From NCBI GenBank assembly GCA_963921825.1, contig OY997596.1, positions 6,701,001 through 6,765,000 of the forward strand: a DNA stretch of 64,000 bases, given 5' to 3'. Under the pieces are notes generated by a model, which searched no databases, was not told the DNA's origin, and saw only the letters and a program-made list of their open reading frames with translations. The stretch comes from Erodium maritimum (lineage: Eukaryota; Streptophyta; Magnoliopsida; Geraniales; Geraniaceae). Shown piece by piece: positions 10,334 to 62,112 of the stretch. Within the stretch, counting starts at the first letter, position 1, and every line of letters begins with the position of its first letter. Both the position numbers and the translations under genes were made by a program.

Positions 10334-13300
10334 ATGGTGTTTTGCATCAATCATCACCCTTCCTCCTCCATTGTCAAGGCACCCAATTTCTCCAAACCCA
10401 GAACCTCCCGATTCTTCTTCACCTCCAAAAGCATCAAGCTCCATCCATGGACGCAGCAGCTGAAGCTCCGCCGCAACGGCAATCTGAAATCCCGGCTCAA
10501 CTCCGTCCGCTGCGAGCGAGGCCTCGCTCCCGCCGCCGAAGGGAGCAATGGGTCTTCAACCAAATCTCCGAAATCGGGGAAGAGAACCGACATCAAGAAG
10601 ATCCTCATACTCGGCGCCGGACCCATCGTCATCGGCCAAGCCTGCGAGTTCGATTACTCAGGTACCCAAGCCGTGAAGGCCCTCAAGGAAGAAGGGTACG
10701 AGGTAATCCTGATAAATTCGAACCCGGCGACGATCATGACGGACCCGGACATGGCCGACAGGACTTACATTACTCCGATGACGCCGGAATTGGTGGAGCA
10801 AGTGCTGGAGAAGGAGCGGCCGGACGCGATTCTCCCCACCATGGGCGGCCAAACAGCCCTCAACCTCGCGGTGGCGCTGGCAGAGAGCGGCCCGCTTGAC
10901 AGGTACGACGTGGAGCTGATTGGGGCCAAGCTAGACGCCATTAAAAAAGCTGAGGATAGAGAATTGTTCAAGGAAGCTATGAAGAACATTGGGCTCAAAA
11001 CCCCACCATCAGGGATTGGTAACACTCTAGATGAATGTATTGAAATAGCTAACCAAATCGGAGAGTTCCCTCTCATCATCAGGCCTGCATTTACCCTGGG
11101 AGGCTCAGGAGGCGGAATTGCTTACAACAAAGAAGAATTCGAGGCGATCTGCAAATCCGGGCTCGCTGCAAGTGTGACCACTCAGGTCCTGGTGGAAAAA
11201 TCCTTGTTGGGTTGGAAAGAGTACGAGCTCGAGGTCATGAGGGACTTGGCTGACAATGTGGTGATCATATGCTCGATCGAAAACATCGATCCAATGGGAG
11301 TGCACACAGGTGATTCCATCACTGTGGCGCCCGCCCAGACCTTGACTGATAAAGAGTACCAGAGGCTGAGAGATTACTCCATTGCCATTATTAGAGAAAT
11401 TGGTGTTGAATGTGGTGGTTCCAATGTTCAGTTTGCTGTTAATCCTGTTGATGGTGAAGTGATGATCATTGAGATGAATCCAAGGGTGTCAAGGTCCTCT
11501 GCCTTGGCATCTAAAGCCACTGGCTTTCCTATAGCGAAAATGGCTGCTAAGTTATCGGTTGGTTATTCGTTGGATCAAATTCCTAATGACATCACGAAGA
11601 AGACACCTGCTAGTTTCGAACCTTCCATTGATTATGTGGTGACTAAGGTAATTTACTCATCCAATATTTGTTTACTTTTGGCATCTTTCTAGTTCAAATT
11701 AATAACTATTGCACTTGGCTAGTAAACTAATACTCATCAAGAACAAGATAAGATCATATATATAGTTAATTAACTATTGGGATGACATAAATGACATGCC
11801 AAATTTGCAGAAGACTTGATTCAATAATGCGGGTAGTGCAACTTGTGTAATGCACAGACTATTATTCCACAGGGGAAATTACAGTGCACAACGGTCATAA
11901 ATACATAATTAGCACTTGCACATTTTGAAATTTTGGACAGAAAAGATGGAATATTCAGTTTTTCTTTTAGTTTTTTTTTTAAGTTAACAACGGATATTCT
12001 ATCTTTTTGGTCCAAAATTTCGAACGGTGCAACAGACCTTTGTTCAACATTCTGAATCGTAGCAAACGAATTCCCACTGTTGTGAAGCGAAAAAAAGTGA
12101 TTTTTTTACCGATGTGAACTGTAATTATTAAACCCATGGCTTTCTTTTCATTTATATCCCCTTTGTTTCTAAGAAAATAGGAGCTAGGCATTTTCAAAAA
12201 GGTAACTTATTAATAATATCACTTATTGCCTGATCACCCTCTTAATGGTTGCTACATCATTATCTGCATTCGAATATTTATTTTTGTATATATCAATGAT
12301 GCAGATACCCCGGTTCGCATTCGAAAAATTCCCCGGTTCTCAGCCAATACTGACTACCCAGATGAAGTCTGTTGGTGAATCCATGGCCTTAGGCCGTACA
12401 TTTCAAGAATCCTTTCAGAAAGCTCTTCGATCTCTGGAATGTGGCTACTCAGGATGGGGTTGTGCACAAGTTAAGGAACTCGAGTGGGATTGGGATCGAT
12501 TGAAGTACAGCCTCCGAGTTCCAAGCCCAGATCGCATCCATGCTGTGTATGCTGCAATGAAGAAGGGCATGAAGGTGGATGAGATTCATGAGCTGAGTTA
12601 CATAGACAAATGGTTCCTTACTCAGCTTAAAGAGCTGGTAGACGTGGAACAGTTTCTCATGGCTCAGGACTTGTCTCATCTGACAAAGGAAAACTTGTAT
12701 GAAGTGAAGAGAAGAGGATTCAGTGACAAGCAGATTGCATTTGCTACCAAGTCTTCAGAGAAAGAGGTCAGATTCAAGAGGCTGTCTCTTGGTGTTACCC
12801 CGGCATTTAAAAGGGTAGATACATGCGCTGCAGAGTTTGAGGCCGATACTCCTTACATGTATTCTTCTTATGATTTTGAGTGTGAATCAGCTCCTACCCA
12901 AAGCAAAAAGGTCTTGATTCTTGGTGGAGGGCCGAATCGGATTGGTCAGGGAATCGAGTTTGACTATTGCTGTTGTCATACATCATTTGCTCTTCAGGTT
13001 TGTGTTTCTTTATCAGTGTGAAGTTTACTTTCTCCGATATTCCCATACTTTGATCTGCTGATTGGCTCCCCCGTATACTACTCCAAAGTGCAACCTTTTT
13101 ATATTCGGAATAATGTCACCATAAGTGAGTGTTTGAAGGTAGTTTGATAATATGGATAGCTGACTTGTCACCTTTCAAACATTACTACACTGCCTTTCAA
13201 ATTCTCGCCCAATTACTGAACTTACAAAAATTGTCACTTTGCTCTATTTTAGTAATATATGACAAAAATACCCCAACAACAATTTTTAAAACTACTGTAG

Positions 13301-15238
13301 CAGCAGTATACTTTCGAAAATTTATGAAGGGTATTTTGTCCTTTTTTTGTATTATTGTGATGTTATCCCTATTTTTTAACCCAAAACTGGCCAATATCTG
13401 ATACCTCTGTTTAGTCTTATACATCTGTCTTGACCGGATTGAATCAAACCCTGTTCTACCTTGTTGCATTTCAAACTTTAATCAGTGTACATGAGGAGCA
13501 GAATTGGTAAGAGATAGAACCAACTTGGTTTCTATATATGTATCGATCTTTTAACCCTTTCTTCATTTCCATTGTATTCCTCTGCAGAAAGCAGGATATG
13601 AGACAATAATGATGAACTCAAATCCGGAGACTGTATCCACAGACTATGATACAAGTGACCGTCTATACTTTGAACCCCTAACAGTTGAAGATGTCTTGAA
13701 CGTTATTGATTTGGAACGACCAGATGGGATCATAGTGCAGTTTGGAGGCCAAACACCCTTGAAACTAGCTCTTCCGATCGAGCAGTACTTAGACGAGCAG
13801 AACCTTGTAAGTTCCAGTGGAGATGGAAAGGTACGGATTTGGGGCACATCACCAGACTCCATAGATGCAGCTGAAGATAGAGAGAGATTCAACGCGATAC
13901 TCGGTGAATTGAAGATTGAACAACCGAAAGGAGGTATTGCCAAGAGTGCGGCCGATGCTCTTGCAATCGCTACAAACATAGGATACCCTGTTGTTGTTCG
14001 GCCTTCCTATGTGTTGGGTGGTCGTGCGATGGAGATTGTGTATAACGATGAGAAGCTCGTCACTTCTCTTGAAAATGCTGTAGAAGTTGACCCAGAACGT
14101 CCTGTTCTGATCGACAGCTACTTATCTGATGCCACTGAGATCGATGTCGATGCACTCGCTGACTCACAAGGCAATGTGGTGATCGGTGGAATCATGGAAC
14201 ACATTGAGCAAGCCGGTGTGCATTCAGGTGACTCTGCTTGTTCTCTTCCCACGAAAACGATTCCATCTTCGTGCTTGGATACAATTCGGTCATGGACCAC
14301 ACATTGAGCAAGCCGGTGTGCATTCAGGTGACTCTGCTTGTTCTCTTCCCACGAAAATGATTCCATCTTCGTGCTTGGATACAATTCGGTCATGGACCAC
14401 CAAATTGGCAAAGAGGCTGAAAGTGATCGGGCTAATGAACTGTCAGTATGCAATCACAGCTTCTGGTGATGTGTTCTTGCTCGAGGCTAACCCTCGCGCT
14501 TCCCGTACAGTCCCGTTCGTTTCAAAGGCAATCGGGCACCCATTGGCTAAGTACGCTTGCCTTGTCATGTCCGGGAAGTCTCTACATGACATAGGTTTCA
14601 CAAAAGAGATCGTTCCTAAACATGTATCAGTCAAAGAAGCTGTTCTTCCATTTGAGAAGTTCCAAGGCTGTGACGTGCTGCTCGGGCCAGAGATGCGCAG
14701 CACCGGGGAGGTAATGGGTATTGATTTTGAGTTCCCCGTTGCTTTCGCCAAGGCTCAGATTGCAGCTGGGCAGAAGCTACCACTCTCTGGAACGGTGTTC
14801 CTCAGTTTGAATGACTTGACAAAGGCCCATCTTGAGAAGATAGCGAGATCCTTCTTGGAGCTTGGGTTTAGCATTGTTTCAACTTCTGGGACTGCTCGGG
14901 TTCTTGAGCTGAGTAAAGTTCCGGTGGAGCGAGTTTTGAAGATGCATGAAGGGAGGCCACATGCCGGTGATATGGTTGCTAATGGGCAGATCCAGTTGAT
15001 GGTGATAACGAGCTCTGGTGACTCGGTCGACCAGGTTGATGGCCGGGAGCTTAGGAGGATGGCTCTTGCTTACAAAGTTCCTATAATAACTACGGTTGCT
15101 GGAGCTTTGGCGAGTGTGGATGCTATACGGAGCTTGAAGTCCTGTAGTGTTAAGATGATTGCTCTTCAGGATTTCTTTGATGATGAGCTTACTGCTGAAG
15201 CTGGTAAAAATCTCCAATCTGTCTCTTCTTCTCTATGA
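10334..15238 (+). CDS. carB: Carbamoyl-phosphate synthase large subunit, chloroplastic
   Basis: It makes carbamoyl phosphate from bicarbonate, ammonia supplied by the small subunit, and two ATP, for arginine and pyrimidine synthesis in the plastid. Modelled exons are 10334-11647, 12305-12997, 13588-14227 and 14328-15238, all with GT-AG introns, giving 1185 aa, the usual plant length. Residues 1 to about 75 are a Ser/Arg-rich transit peptide. Two homologous ATP-grasp halves follow, opening with [20 protein letters not shown] and [20 protein letters not shown]. The C-terminal 150 residues are an MGS-like regulatory domain. The last exon contains a 100-bp exact tandem duplication (14201-14400). 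The third intron in this model, 14228-14327, is exactly that duplicated length. Without that splice, translation stops at 14305-14307 after about 908 residues, losing the end of the second ATP-grasp half and the MGS domain. AATAAA overlaps the stop region. Confidence 0.93.
14201..14400 (+). repeat. 100-bp tandem duplication inside the carB last exon
   Basis: 14201-14300 and 14301-14400 are identical except at 14258 (C) versus 14358 (T). The period is exactly 100 bp, which is not a multiple of three, so it shifts the frame. Flanking ACCAC/AC microhomology marks the join. Each copy contains CATTCAGGTGACT. Confidence 0.97.
14228..14327 (+). other. Predicted newborn intron in carB (100 bp)
   Basis: The donor context is CAG|GTGACT at 14228 and the acceptor context GTGTGCATTCAG|G at 14327. 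Both come from the same exonic AGGT present in each duplicate. Removal restores codon 883 (Gly, split after its first base) and the downstream frame. The interior is close to 50 percent GC with little polypyrimidine tract, so splicing efficiency is uncertain. It is inferred from frame restoration only. Confidence 0.6.
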
Positions 15239-18509: not shown

Positions 18510-18819
18510 GTTTTAAAATGAAGTGTAATGTATTGGAGGAAACAAAGAGCATGTGCAGCCAAAGCCCAAAATAGGGTGTTGCAGCCGCAGCCTACGCCGA
18601 CGTCCAGGCTTTGGTCCACTACAGTGTGGGGAGCCTGGGCTTCGGAAGCCCAGACTTCTCCACGCTTTAAAATCAAGTGTAATGTATTGGAGGAAACTAA
18701 GAGCATGTGCAACCAAAGCCCAAAATAGGGTGCTGCAGCCGCAGCCTACGCCGACGCCCAGGCTTCGGCCCACTACAGTGTGGGGAGCCTGGGTTTCCGA
18801 AGCCCAGACTTCTCCACGC
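18510..18819. repeat. 154-bp tandem duplication spanning the Harbinger left end
   Basis: Two copies with period 154 bp (for example TATTGGAGGA at 18531 and 18685) each include flanking DNA plus the element terminus GAGCATGTGCA and its first hundred or so bases. The copies differ at several sites. Each copy contains self-complementary GGCTTCGGAAGCC-type stretches. The outer copy has AAA where the inner has the TAA target site. Confidence 0.85.
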
Positions 18820-33415: not shown

Positions 33416-34269
33416 CAAATAAAAATCAAAATTTCTTTTTATCTTTTTTGTTATGAATATTTGATTGGATGACCACATGGAATATTCTAGATAGGAGTTA
33501 CAAGACTTTTGAGGGAGTTAGAAGACTTTTGTATTTTGAATTCCATTATTTAAGTAATTCATTAAGGTTATGTCTATTCGATTCTCTACTCTCTCCATAT
33601 TCTCTTGTTCTCTCTAGTTTTTATTCTTACATTCACAAGTATCGTTCTTACTTTTATAACACGTTATCAGCACGAATTGCTCTACTATCCAGGTATCAAA
33701 GTTTTGTATTATCGTGAATTTATTTTAATTCGATTCATGTTTATTTATACAAGTTCATTTATGTTTTTCGATAAGTATGCTCTGTGATTGCCAATATACA
33801 TTGGATCTTTCACATTAGAAACTTGATGTTTATTATATACTTGTGTTTTGTTTTTATTTGATACTCAAATATGAGATTTGTTGAAATCGAATCATTTGCA
33901 CCTGAAGTTCCAAGATACGAACTGTTTTTCTTATAACATGTAACTTGGCTTAAAAGCATGAAGCTTGAAAAAAAATTCACGATACGGTTACATGGGTAGT
34001 TTAGCTACTCCATCTGTTCTCTCGTCGCATGGTCATCTTGTGAGTAAATTTAAGAGGTTGTATATTTGTAGCCTGAAGTTTACAAATATGATGATATGTT
34101 GGATCAGAATTTTCAAATACATAATACTATTGATTTGATGTATGTTGGACCAGAAGTTCCAAATACATGGTACAACAAATGATTGTGTATTCTCTCCCAT
34201 ATATGAATAAGAGTATTACAATTGATGGTTCATGTTTTAATTTAAGACCATGGGTCTTATAACTTAATG

Positions 34270-34503
34270 AAATTAGTGTGACCCGAAGTTCACATCTACC
34301 TAATGATGACAAAACCCGAAGTTTTGGTTCAAAGTATAAACTTGAAGAAATTAGAATGACCCGAAGTTCACATCTACCTAATGATGACAAAACCCGAAGT
34401 TTTGGTTCAAAGTATAAACTTGAAGAAATTAGAGTGACCCAAAGTCTACATATACCTAATGATGACAAAACCTGAAGTTTTGGTTCAACGTATAAACTTG
34501 AAA
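34270..34503. repeat. 78-bp tandem repeat, three copies, in the Copia leader
   Basis: Copies begin AAATTAG at 34270, 34348 and 34426. Each contains GACCCGAAGTTCACATCTAC and AAACCCGAAGTTTTGGTTCA or close variants. The wider leader (33890-34880) is peppered with singles of the same CCYGAAGTT motif. Confidence 0.9.
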
Positions 34504-44132: not shown

Positions 44133-45564
44133 TCACTTCTTCTTAACTGCAGACTTGGTGACCTTGGCGCCTGTTGGGTCCTTCTTGTCCACGCTCTTGA
44201 TGACTCCAACAGCAACAGTCTGCCTCATGTCCCTCACAGCGAAACGTCCCAGAGGTGGGTACTCAGAGAAGGTCTCCACAACCATGGGCTTGGTCGGAAG
44301 CATCTTCACCATACCTGCATCACCGTTCTTCAAGAACTTGGGCTCCTTCTCAATCTCCTTACCGGATCGCCTGTCGATCTTGGTCACAAGCTCGGCAAAC
44401 TTGACAGCAATGTGGGAGGTGTGGCAATCGAGCACTGGGGCATACCCGTTACCGATCTGACCAGGGTGGTTCATGATGATGACCTGGGACACAAAGCTGG
44501 CAGCACCCTTGGCAGGGTCGTCCTTGGAGTTGGATGCAACATACCCACGCTTCAGATCCTTGACAGCAACATTCTTGACATTGAATCCAACGTTGTCACC
44601 AGGGAGAGCCTCTTGGAGGGCTTCGTGGTGCATCTCCACAGACTTGACCTCAGTTGTCAATCCAGATGGTCCAAAGGTGACAACCATACCGGGCTTGATG
44701 ACACCAGTCTCAACACGTCCGACCGGCACAGTTCCAATACCACCAATCTTGTAGACGTCCTGAAGTGGGAGCCTGAGTGGCTTGTCTGAGGGCCTCTTGG
44801 GCTCACTGATCTGGTCAAGAGCCTCAAGGAGAGTTGGTCCCTTGTACCAGTCAAGGTTGGTTGACCTCTCAATCATGTTGTCACCCTCGAAACCAGAGAT
44901 GGGGACGAAGGCAATTTTGTCAGGGTTGTATCCAACCTTCTTCAAGTATGAAGAGACCTCCTTCACGATTTCCTCGTACCTAGACTTTGAGTACTTGGGT
45001 GTGGTGGCATCCATCTGAAATATCATAAAACAGATAAATCGGTTGAATATCATCAACCAAGCAACCAAATTTCAATATGACTCTACAACAACAAAAGCTA
45101 ACCTTGTTACAGCAGCAAATCATCTGCTTGACACCAAGGGTGAAAGCAAGAAGAGCATGCTCACGGGTCTGGCCATCCTTGGAGATACCAGCCTCAAAAC
45201 CACCAGTGGTGGAGTCAATGATGAGGACAGCACAGTCAGCCTGTGAAGTTCCAGTGATCATGTTCTTAATGAAATCACGATGTCCAGGGGCATCAATGAC
45301 TGTGCAGTAGTACTTGGTGGTCTCAAACTTCCACAAGGCAATATCAATGGTAATACCACGTTCACGCTCAGCCTTGAGCTTGTCCAACACCCAGGCGTAC
45401 TTGAATGACCTCTTGTTCATCTCAGCTGCCTCCTTCTCAAACCTCTCGATCACACGCTTGTCAATACCACCAAGCTTGTAGATAAGGTGACCTGTGGTGG
45501 TCGACTTTCCAGAGTCGACATGACCAATGACAACAATACTGATATGAATCTTTTCTTTACCCAT
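44133..45564 (-). CDS. EF1A: Translation elongation factor 1-alpha
   Basis: A GTPase that delivers aminoacyl-tRNA to the ribosome A site in the cytosol. Two coding exons on the minus strand, 45103-45564 and 44133-45014, give 447 aa, the standard length. The G1 P-loop is GHVDSGKST (residues 14-22), G3 is DAPGH, and the NKMD G4 motif is split by the coding intron after K154, so exon 2 starts [15 protein letters not shown]. Domains II and III follow ([35 protein letters not shown]) and the basic tail SAVKKK. A leader intron (45573-46308) precedes the ATG, as in most plant EF-1alpha genes, where it boosts expression. No defect is visible. Large antisense ORFs over this gene are shadows. Confidence 0.98.
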
Positions 45565-45572
45565 GTTGAAAC

Positions 45573-46308
45573 CTGCATCAATAACAGACACATATTCAAG
45601 ATCAATGTGGATATGAAAGTATACTACAATAAATTCATTTCATATTATTTAATAACATCAAATTAGCCATAATCGCCATAAAATCCAACAAATAAGCACA
45701 CACATGAGCATATATCACTGTTGAAAATCAAATTATTAACCTTTTGAAAACATTAACTAGGTACAACTATGCATACCCAAGACTGTAATCAACAAATAAA
45801 TCACAAAGAGGGCTACTAAATGAGATCTACTTTCGTTTATAAGATTTCAGACAAAAAGTTTACTATAAGAAAATTCAACATGCTGGACATAAAAATATTT
45901 GTGAAACACAAGATTCAAAATATACAAAGCAAATCAAAAGAAACTTTACAGGCTTAATCAAGGCAAGTTTATCAAAGAAATAAATCATTAAATATTTTCT
46001 GAAAATCACGCATGAGAACATATCGAACAAACCATAAACATCTAAAAAACTATTCAACAACAAAACTAATCATGATTTAACAAAAACTTTCCAACATTAA
46101 CCAAAACCAACACATACGGCCTATTAATCAGTGTTCATCAACGTAAACAAACAGCTAAAAGCACAGAAATGATCGGAACATAATATTCAAAACAAAAAAA
46201 ACGATGAAATCAAAACACAAGTTTCGATCGGTGAACCAAACACAAACATCAGAAATTTCAAAGCGACAAGAATATGAAAAATGAGGGAGTAACAGATCAG
46301 ATCCGAAC
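45573..46308 (-). other. 5'-UTR intron of EF-1alpha, 736 bp
   Basis: The donor is CTTTCAG|GTTCGG at 46308 and the acceptor is GATGCAG|GTTTC at 45573, eight bases before the ATG. It is rich in A and T, as plant leader introns are. Confidence 0.8.
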
Positions 46309-61683: not shown

Positions 61684-62112
61684 TATATATATATATATAC
61701 AAACCACCCCTTATTGTGCAAACTACGAACTCACCAGGTGCTGACACGTGGGCGTGCGCGCTGCTGGTGCGCGCGCACAGTGCTGACACGTGGCGCGCAT
61801 AGTGTTAATAGTTTGGGCGCACAGTGCTAATAATTTGGCATTGTGCTAAACTATTAGCACTGTGCGTGCCAAACTATTAGCACCGTGCGCGCGTGTGGTC
61901 AACACGGTCACGCGCGCGGGCAGAGGCGCGCGCGAATCTGCCACGTGTCAGCATCGCTTGCGCGGGCAGAGGCGCGCGCGAATCTGCCACGTGTCAGCAT
62001 CGCGCGCGCTCTGCTGACGTCACTTTGACCGCATCCTGTGGTTTAGATTGGTTCGTAGTTTGCACAATAAGGAAGGTTTTTACTGGATAGCTACCATATA
62101 TATATATATATA
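61684..62112. mobile_element. MITE A in (TA)n, about 395 bp
   Basis: Bounded by TA runs (61684-61699 and 62096-62112). The left arm is ACAAACCACCCCTTATTGTG; the right arm is the complement ending TTTACTGGATAGCTACC. Shared arm core: TTATTGTGCAAACTACGAAC. The interior is a GCGC-rich, heavily palindromic region with GACACGTGG and CTAATAGTTTGG motifs. Confidence 0.8.

Follow-up and report, generated by a model that had tools for sequence, protein, structure and literature searches.

A 100-bp tandem duplication in the last exon of a plastid carB gene of Erodium maritimum: inactivated duplicate or intron at birth?

Does a tandem duplication in the last exon of a plastid carB gene disable the gene, or has it supplied the ends of an intron whose removal restores the protein? 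The gene lies in a 64,000-nucleotide stretch of the Erodium maritimum genome (C9:6701001-6765000), which we call the window and whose positions are used throughout. The assembly comprises 763 Mb in 40 contigs; of the 23 inspected, nine have the size of chromosomes (62.6-158.6 Mb) and the other 14 are shorter than 0.12 Mb. The carB gene encodes the large subunit of plastid carbamoyl-phosphate synthetase, At1g29900 in Arabidopsis (PMC4520006), and its product is an enzyme for arginine and pyrimidine. An earlier note on this DNA read the duplication as an intron at birth in an essential gene. Our analysis points instead to the loss of one redundant gene copy.

The carB gene on C9 and its duplication

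The window contains a plastid carB gene of three exons on the plus strand (Table 1), with a match to E. coli 1bxr. Amino acid identity of exon 1 is 86% to the paralog on C4 and 88% to that on C3, and the last exon minus one copy of the duplication aligns without gaps to both. About 1185 aa are encoded, close to cyanobacterial CarB, as expected of plastid carB, from which the C9 gene differs in that its C-terminal exon is frameshifted. The two-synthetase architecture is full-length in the C3 (1182 aa) and C4 (1193 aa) genes, and in C9 only after one copy is removed. The donor of exon 1 is AAG/GTAATT in C9 (11645-11653; the slash marks the splice boundary), which has GT and is weakened at +5; the same intron has a GC donor, AAG/GCAAGT, in C3 and C4. 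It seems that a GC-AG intron switched to GT-AG along the C9 branch.

Positions 14199-14300 match positions 14299-14400 at an offset of 100, with one mismatch (C14258 versus T14358) across 102 aligned positions. The duplicated unit measures 100 bp; the remaining two matching bases represent microhomology at the junction. No comparable run of matches was found at offsets of 98, 99, 101 or 102 over 14151-14420, and Tandem Repeats Finder reported the identical array (14192-14400, period 100, score 397). A match of 101 out of 102 positions is plainly not due to chance. The earlier note had described the repeat both as exact and as carrying a single mismatch between the copies; the second description is the correct one.

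Read unspliced through the duplication, the three-exon coding sequence is frameshifted and stops at codon 909, at the position the earlier note had given. Both copies contain AGGT, within CAG/GTGACT at 14225-14233 and again at 14325-14333, which brings a GT and an AG to the two ends of a 100-nt segment. Excision of this segment takes out exactly one copy and leaves C9 carB open for 1185 codons, as had been claimed.

Table 1. Features of the C9 carB gene, its duplication and the collinear regions, in window positions unless stated otherwise
Feature	Position	Strand	Description
carB exon 1	10334..11647	+	plastid transit region and N-terminal carbamoyl-phosphate synthetase half; ATG at 10334, open frame
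carB exon 2	12305..12997	+	amino acid identity 90% (C4) and 93% (C3); boundaries conserved
carB last exon	13588..15238	+	C-terminal synthetase half and regulatory domain; split by the duplication
TCATGGAACAC	14192..14202	+	imperfect homology to the other duplication breakpoint; offset-98 match run
Duplication copy 1	14199..14298	+	C at 14258, ancestral; codon ACG, Thr
Candidate 100-nt GT-AG intron	14228..14327	+	CAG/GTGACT ... GCATTCAG/GTG
Duplication copy 2	14299..14398	+	T at 14358, derived; codon ATG, Met893
2-bp junction microhomology	14299-14300 / 14399-14400	+	part of the offset-100 run
Premature TGA from the frameshift	14305..14307	+	codon 909 of the raw coding-sequence translation
TCATGGACCAC	14390..14400	+	10 of 11 bases identical to 14192-14202
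C9-C3 collinear hits, C9 side	about -6.6 to -4.6 kb; carB; about 39-40.5 kb; 47-50 kb
C3 counterparts, listed in the same order	C3 12.335-12.334; 12.303-12.298; 12.266-12.265; 12.262-12.259 Mb

Before the duplication, TCATGGAACAC and TCATGGACCAC lay 98 bp apart and formed an imperfect homology, TCATGGA[A/C]CAC, shifted by 2 bp. Replication slippage on this homology was considered and rejected, as exact slippage predicts a 98-bp unit and the observed unit is 100 bp. The length of the unit and the 2-bp join are better matched by template switching, or by the repair of breaks close together, than by plain slippage. We therefore favor an origin by repair or template switching with 2-bp microhomology, although such an origin is not provable.

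The copies are adjacent, head-to-tail and absent from the paralogs, with little microhomology at the junction, as is typical of short tandem duplications. They resemble the patch-repair duplications of rice, tandem insertions of about 100 bp with little microhomology (PMC7971508, citing Vaughn and Bennetzen 2014). According to that paper, the share of tandem duplications among insertion events in rice is initially about 70% and falls off only beyond about 125 bp, and they are attributed to patch repair. The C9 duplication differs from the rice cases in interrupting an exon of a duplicate gene under constraint, and in being known from one genome rather than from population data. Short tandem duplications with periods of 42-154 bp, counted at a period of at least 40 bp, fewer than four copies and at least 90% match, numbered six in 104 kb around the window (14199-14400 included), one in 90 kb on C3 and two in 90 kb on C4. 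Other young tandem duplications in the window are at 18512-18819 (154 bp x 2, 94%), 34261-34502 (78 bp x 3.1, 93%) and 61914-62003 (46 bp x 2, 100%).

Splice signals and the geometry of the rescue

We compared the candidate intron with 21 introns of the same genome, themselves inferred from genomic sequence: six from the three carB genes, six from a proteasome beta-subunit gene present in two copies and nine from a gene for SecA on C8. The C3 copy of the proteasome gene has two more introns, which were excluded because one end was unlocated. The SecA introns were located by alignment of spliced peptides with Arthrospira SecA, which gave one best solution for each of nine exon pairs; they come from the better-conserved parts of the gene. 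A SecA-like gene is also present on an unplaced contig (C27:57497-59779), as a single uninterrupted frame of 857 aa that matches Arthrospira SecA at 57% over the first piece; the matches on C8 and C9 are exon-by-exon instead. This gene is possibly bacterial contamination or derived from an endophyte.

The donor of the candidate intron is a good one. Its predicted duplex with U1 (-8.1 kcal/mol) ties with the best among the 21 inferred introns, and pairing as stable is reached by two of 190 exonic GTs, CAG/GTGACT included. The length is ordinary as well, given that short introns elsewhere in the genome measure 83-138 nt. The remaining signals are poor by the standard of the inferred introns. The T content at positions -30 to -4 is 0.22; the 21 inferred introns have 0.33-0.70 there, and the stretches preceding 773 exonic AGs average 0.26. 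The G+C content is 0.49, against 0.48 in the flanking exon and 0.25-0.39 in the inferred introns. The yTnAy branch motif is absent from all 100 nt of the candidate, and is present between -12 and -70 in 20 of the 21 inferred introns.

Donor and acceptor scores were based on general plant base frequencies, and we gave more weight to the U1 energies and the in-genome introns. On these scores the donor reaches 2.7, compared to 4.6-7.6 for the six carB donors, and is equalled or exceeded by eight of 190 exonic GTs (itself included); the acceptor reaches -0.2, compared to 3.9-7.9 for the six carB acceptors, and falls within the top 20 of 256 exonic AGs. Enumeration of GT-AG pairs with donors at 14050-14399 and introns of at least 60 nt yielded 85 frame-rescuing pairs. 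By the same frequencies 14228-14327 scored best, and the alternative pairs were discarded, as none scored above it. The candidate intron appears to have a ready-made donor and a 3' half that is not ready-made.

How unusual is the geometry itself? AGGT is present in 44%, 51% and 52% of 100-bp mature coding segments of the C9, C3 and C4 genes, respectively, and CAGGT in 15-18% of such segments. Excision at the same point across two tandem copies always deletes exactly one of them, so that the duplication by itself accounts for both the 100-bp length and the recovery of the protein. The geometry is therefore not very surprising. About half of the 100-bp coding segments of carB would give an equally "perfect" rescue on paper, which is a useful caution.

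Tandem duplication as a route to intron gain, invoked in the earlier note, is indeed a published model (the Rogers model; PMC4974935). That paper describes an intron gained by tandem duplication in a potato RdRp gene (PGSC0003DMG402000361), with 106 junction reads, and cites cases of intron gain in vertebrate ATP2A1 and in fission yeast. It also cites experimental proof, obtained with ATP2A2, that an all-exonic duplication can be spliced, which makes all-exonic splicing a real possibility for C9 carB. The potato gene and C9 carB are alike in that a recent direct tandem repeat supplies the GT and the AG from its copies and its removal restores the frame. However, the potato intron took over its branch site, its pyrimidine tract, its acceptor and its contrast in G+C from a genuine intron (PMC4974935), whereas in C9 carB all signals would be exonic, the donor alone is good, and the case is known here from genomic sequence. 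If spliced, C9 carB would offer a plant intron so young that it has yet to diverge from its source exon, derived entirely from coding sequence, and would show directly how strong a splice signal has to be at birth. If unspliced, it would illustrate clearly how a duplication within an exon can display textbook GT-AG geometry and merely inactivate a redundant gene.

Paralogs, constraint and age

The view of carB as an essential gene does not apply to this genome. Whole-genome DNA and protein searches located three carB loci, in the C9 window, at C3:12.30 Mb and at C4:65.18 Mb, which rules out a single-copy essential carB. The C3 and C4 genes are full length and lack the duplication, and serve as a within-genome outgroup. 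Among the seven tblastn matches obtained with the C-terminal exon, the C3 and C4 exons are free of stops, and the C9 exon appears as two overlapping pieces, one with two TGA codons. Several genes are collinear between C9 and C3, in inverted order (Table 1). Scattered C9-C3 hits off this line are repeat-like, and C4 shares less gene order. C9 and C3 look like retained duplicates from polyploidy or segmental duplication, for which redundancy is expected. With two intact, duplication-free paralogs in the genome, loss of the C9 copy should probably be tolerable. Among the neighbors of carB, the gene at 47.4-50.1 kb is one that we take to be PBG1, a proteasome beta subunit. The minus strand at 44983-45639 carries the beginning of a gene for a GTPase resembling elongation factor 1-alpha (Pfam GTP_EFTU), presumably EF1A from its N-terminal sequence.

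Synonymous divergence (Ks) and dN/dS, computed for C9 with one copy of the duplication omitted, are 0.62 and 0.057 between C9 and C3, 0.80 and 0.053 between C9 and C4, and 0.69 and 0.048 between C3 and C4. The low dN/dS indicates that C9 carB was strongly constrained for nearly the whole of its separate life and was functional until recently. Changes in the mature part were assigned to branches at sites where two of the three carB copies agree, giving synonymous and non-synonymous counts of 155 and 45 for C9, 117 and 30 for C3, and 174 and 41 for C4. These raw counts do not differ clearly between C9 and the other two, and so give no clear sign of relaxation across the C9 branch.

The duplication itself is young. 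One mismatch in 100 bp amounts to about 1.6% of the Ks between C9 and C3, 0.62 (95% Poisson interval 0.04-9%). No stop or frameshift beyond the duplication was found in the C9 coding sequence. As a dead copy should have gained only about 0.5 further nonsense mutations in the time since the duplication, the lack of additional stops is barely informative. A long-decayed pseudogene is ruled out by the paralog-like constraint together with the lack of a second stop or frameshift.

The one difference between the copies is a CpG-to-TpG transition that changes Thr to Met. Both paralogs have a Thr codon here, indicating that the C of copy 1 is ancestral and the T of copy 2 derived. Splicing out 14228-14327 would leave the codon of copy 2, and hence a protein with Met893. 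Among 80 prokaryote CarB loci, mostly cyanobacterial, retained out of 582 found, site 893 is Ser in 58, Thr in 19, Asn in two, Gly in one and Met in none; at the corresponding site in the N-terminal half, 78 have Thr and two have Ser. Site 893 is Thr in both E. coli CarB and human CPS1. The first mutation in a spliced and selected gene should tend to be intronic or silent, and Thr893Met therefore favors a gene no longer under selection. In a simple count built on one mutation, the likelihood ratio for "no longer selected" over "spliced and selected" is 3.5-13 (omega 0.2-0.05), and 1.6 at omega 0.5. The C/T difference could also be an allelic variant that predates the duplication.

Explanations for the C9 duplication

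We consider it probable that a young, repair-type 100-bp tandem duplication recently inactivated C9 carB, one of three redundant plastid carB genes. A break or template switch would have re-copied 100 bp within the last exon. Most C9 transcripts would retain both copies and encode a 908-residue product missing the last 278 native residues, and with them the regulatory domain and a conserved EANPR stretch that belongs to the second ATP-grasp unit. The C9 copy would then yield no working carbamoyl-phosphate synthetase, and carB function would be carried by C3 and C4. Weak splicing at CAG/GTGACT may happen, with a product that would carry Thr893Met. An intron at birth, in which the duplicated CAG/GTGACT gives both splice sites and removal of 14228-14327 gives the 1185-aa Thr893Met protein, seems unlikely to us. 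The exact geometry, the strong U1 pairing of the top-scoring frame-rescuing pair, the introns of 83-138 nt known in this genome and the published precedents for the route (PMC4974935, also citing ATP2A1/ATP2A2) are all consistent with it. These are set against low T, exon-like G+C and a missing yTnAy motif, donor and acceptor scores under those of all six carB donors and acceptors, the Met in the retained copy, and redundant paralogs that take away the need for rescue. The intron at birth is thus sound in its geometry and weakly supported as an interpretation, and a null allele, which the earlier note had listed as an alternative, fits better. It is accordingly improbable that C9 carries a near-zero-age, all-exonic spliceosomal intron, perhaps leaky, that has kept a third carB partly alive.

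Inactivation by a real duplication also has to be weighed against an error in the assembly, in which overlapping contig or haplotype ends were joined unmerged to produce a false 100-bp repeat. We regard this as quite unlikely, even though the unit is exactly 100 bp, false duplications are reported to be widespread in assemblies (PMC9516828), and the assembly has a gap of 200 N some 17 kb upstream of the duplication (window -3087 to -2888, about 3 kb before the window). The window contains zero N, the junction is gap-free with repair-like microhomology, and the single difference between the copies is a transition of a biologically typical kind. Moreover, the flanking and paralogous regions contain other short tandem duplications, with periods of 42-154 bp, and no extra carB match was reported on other contigs. 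A segregating null allele, with the duplication heterozygous or private to the sequenced plant and the other allele intact, is the population-level version of C9 inactivation. The youth of the duplication and the otherwise clean coding sequence would suit such an allele, but a second allele of the C9 locus was not found in the assembly, which says little either way; we judge this explanation very unlikely.

One further change in C9 carB lies upstream of the duplication. Tyr829Ser (about 14070) alters a residue that is Tyr in all 80 prokaryote CarB loci, which adds to the case for inactivation, but that is Phe at the equivalent position of human CPS1, which tells against it. The most conserved sites altered on the C3 (22 testable) and C4 (30 testable) branches are A858S (95% conserved) and L535M (92%).
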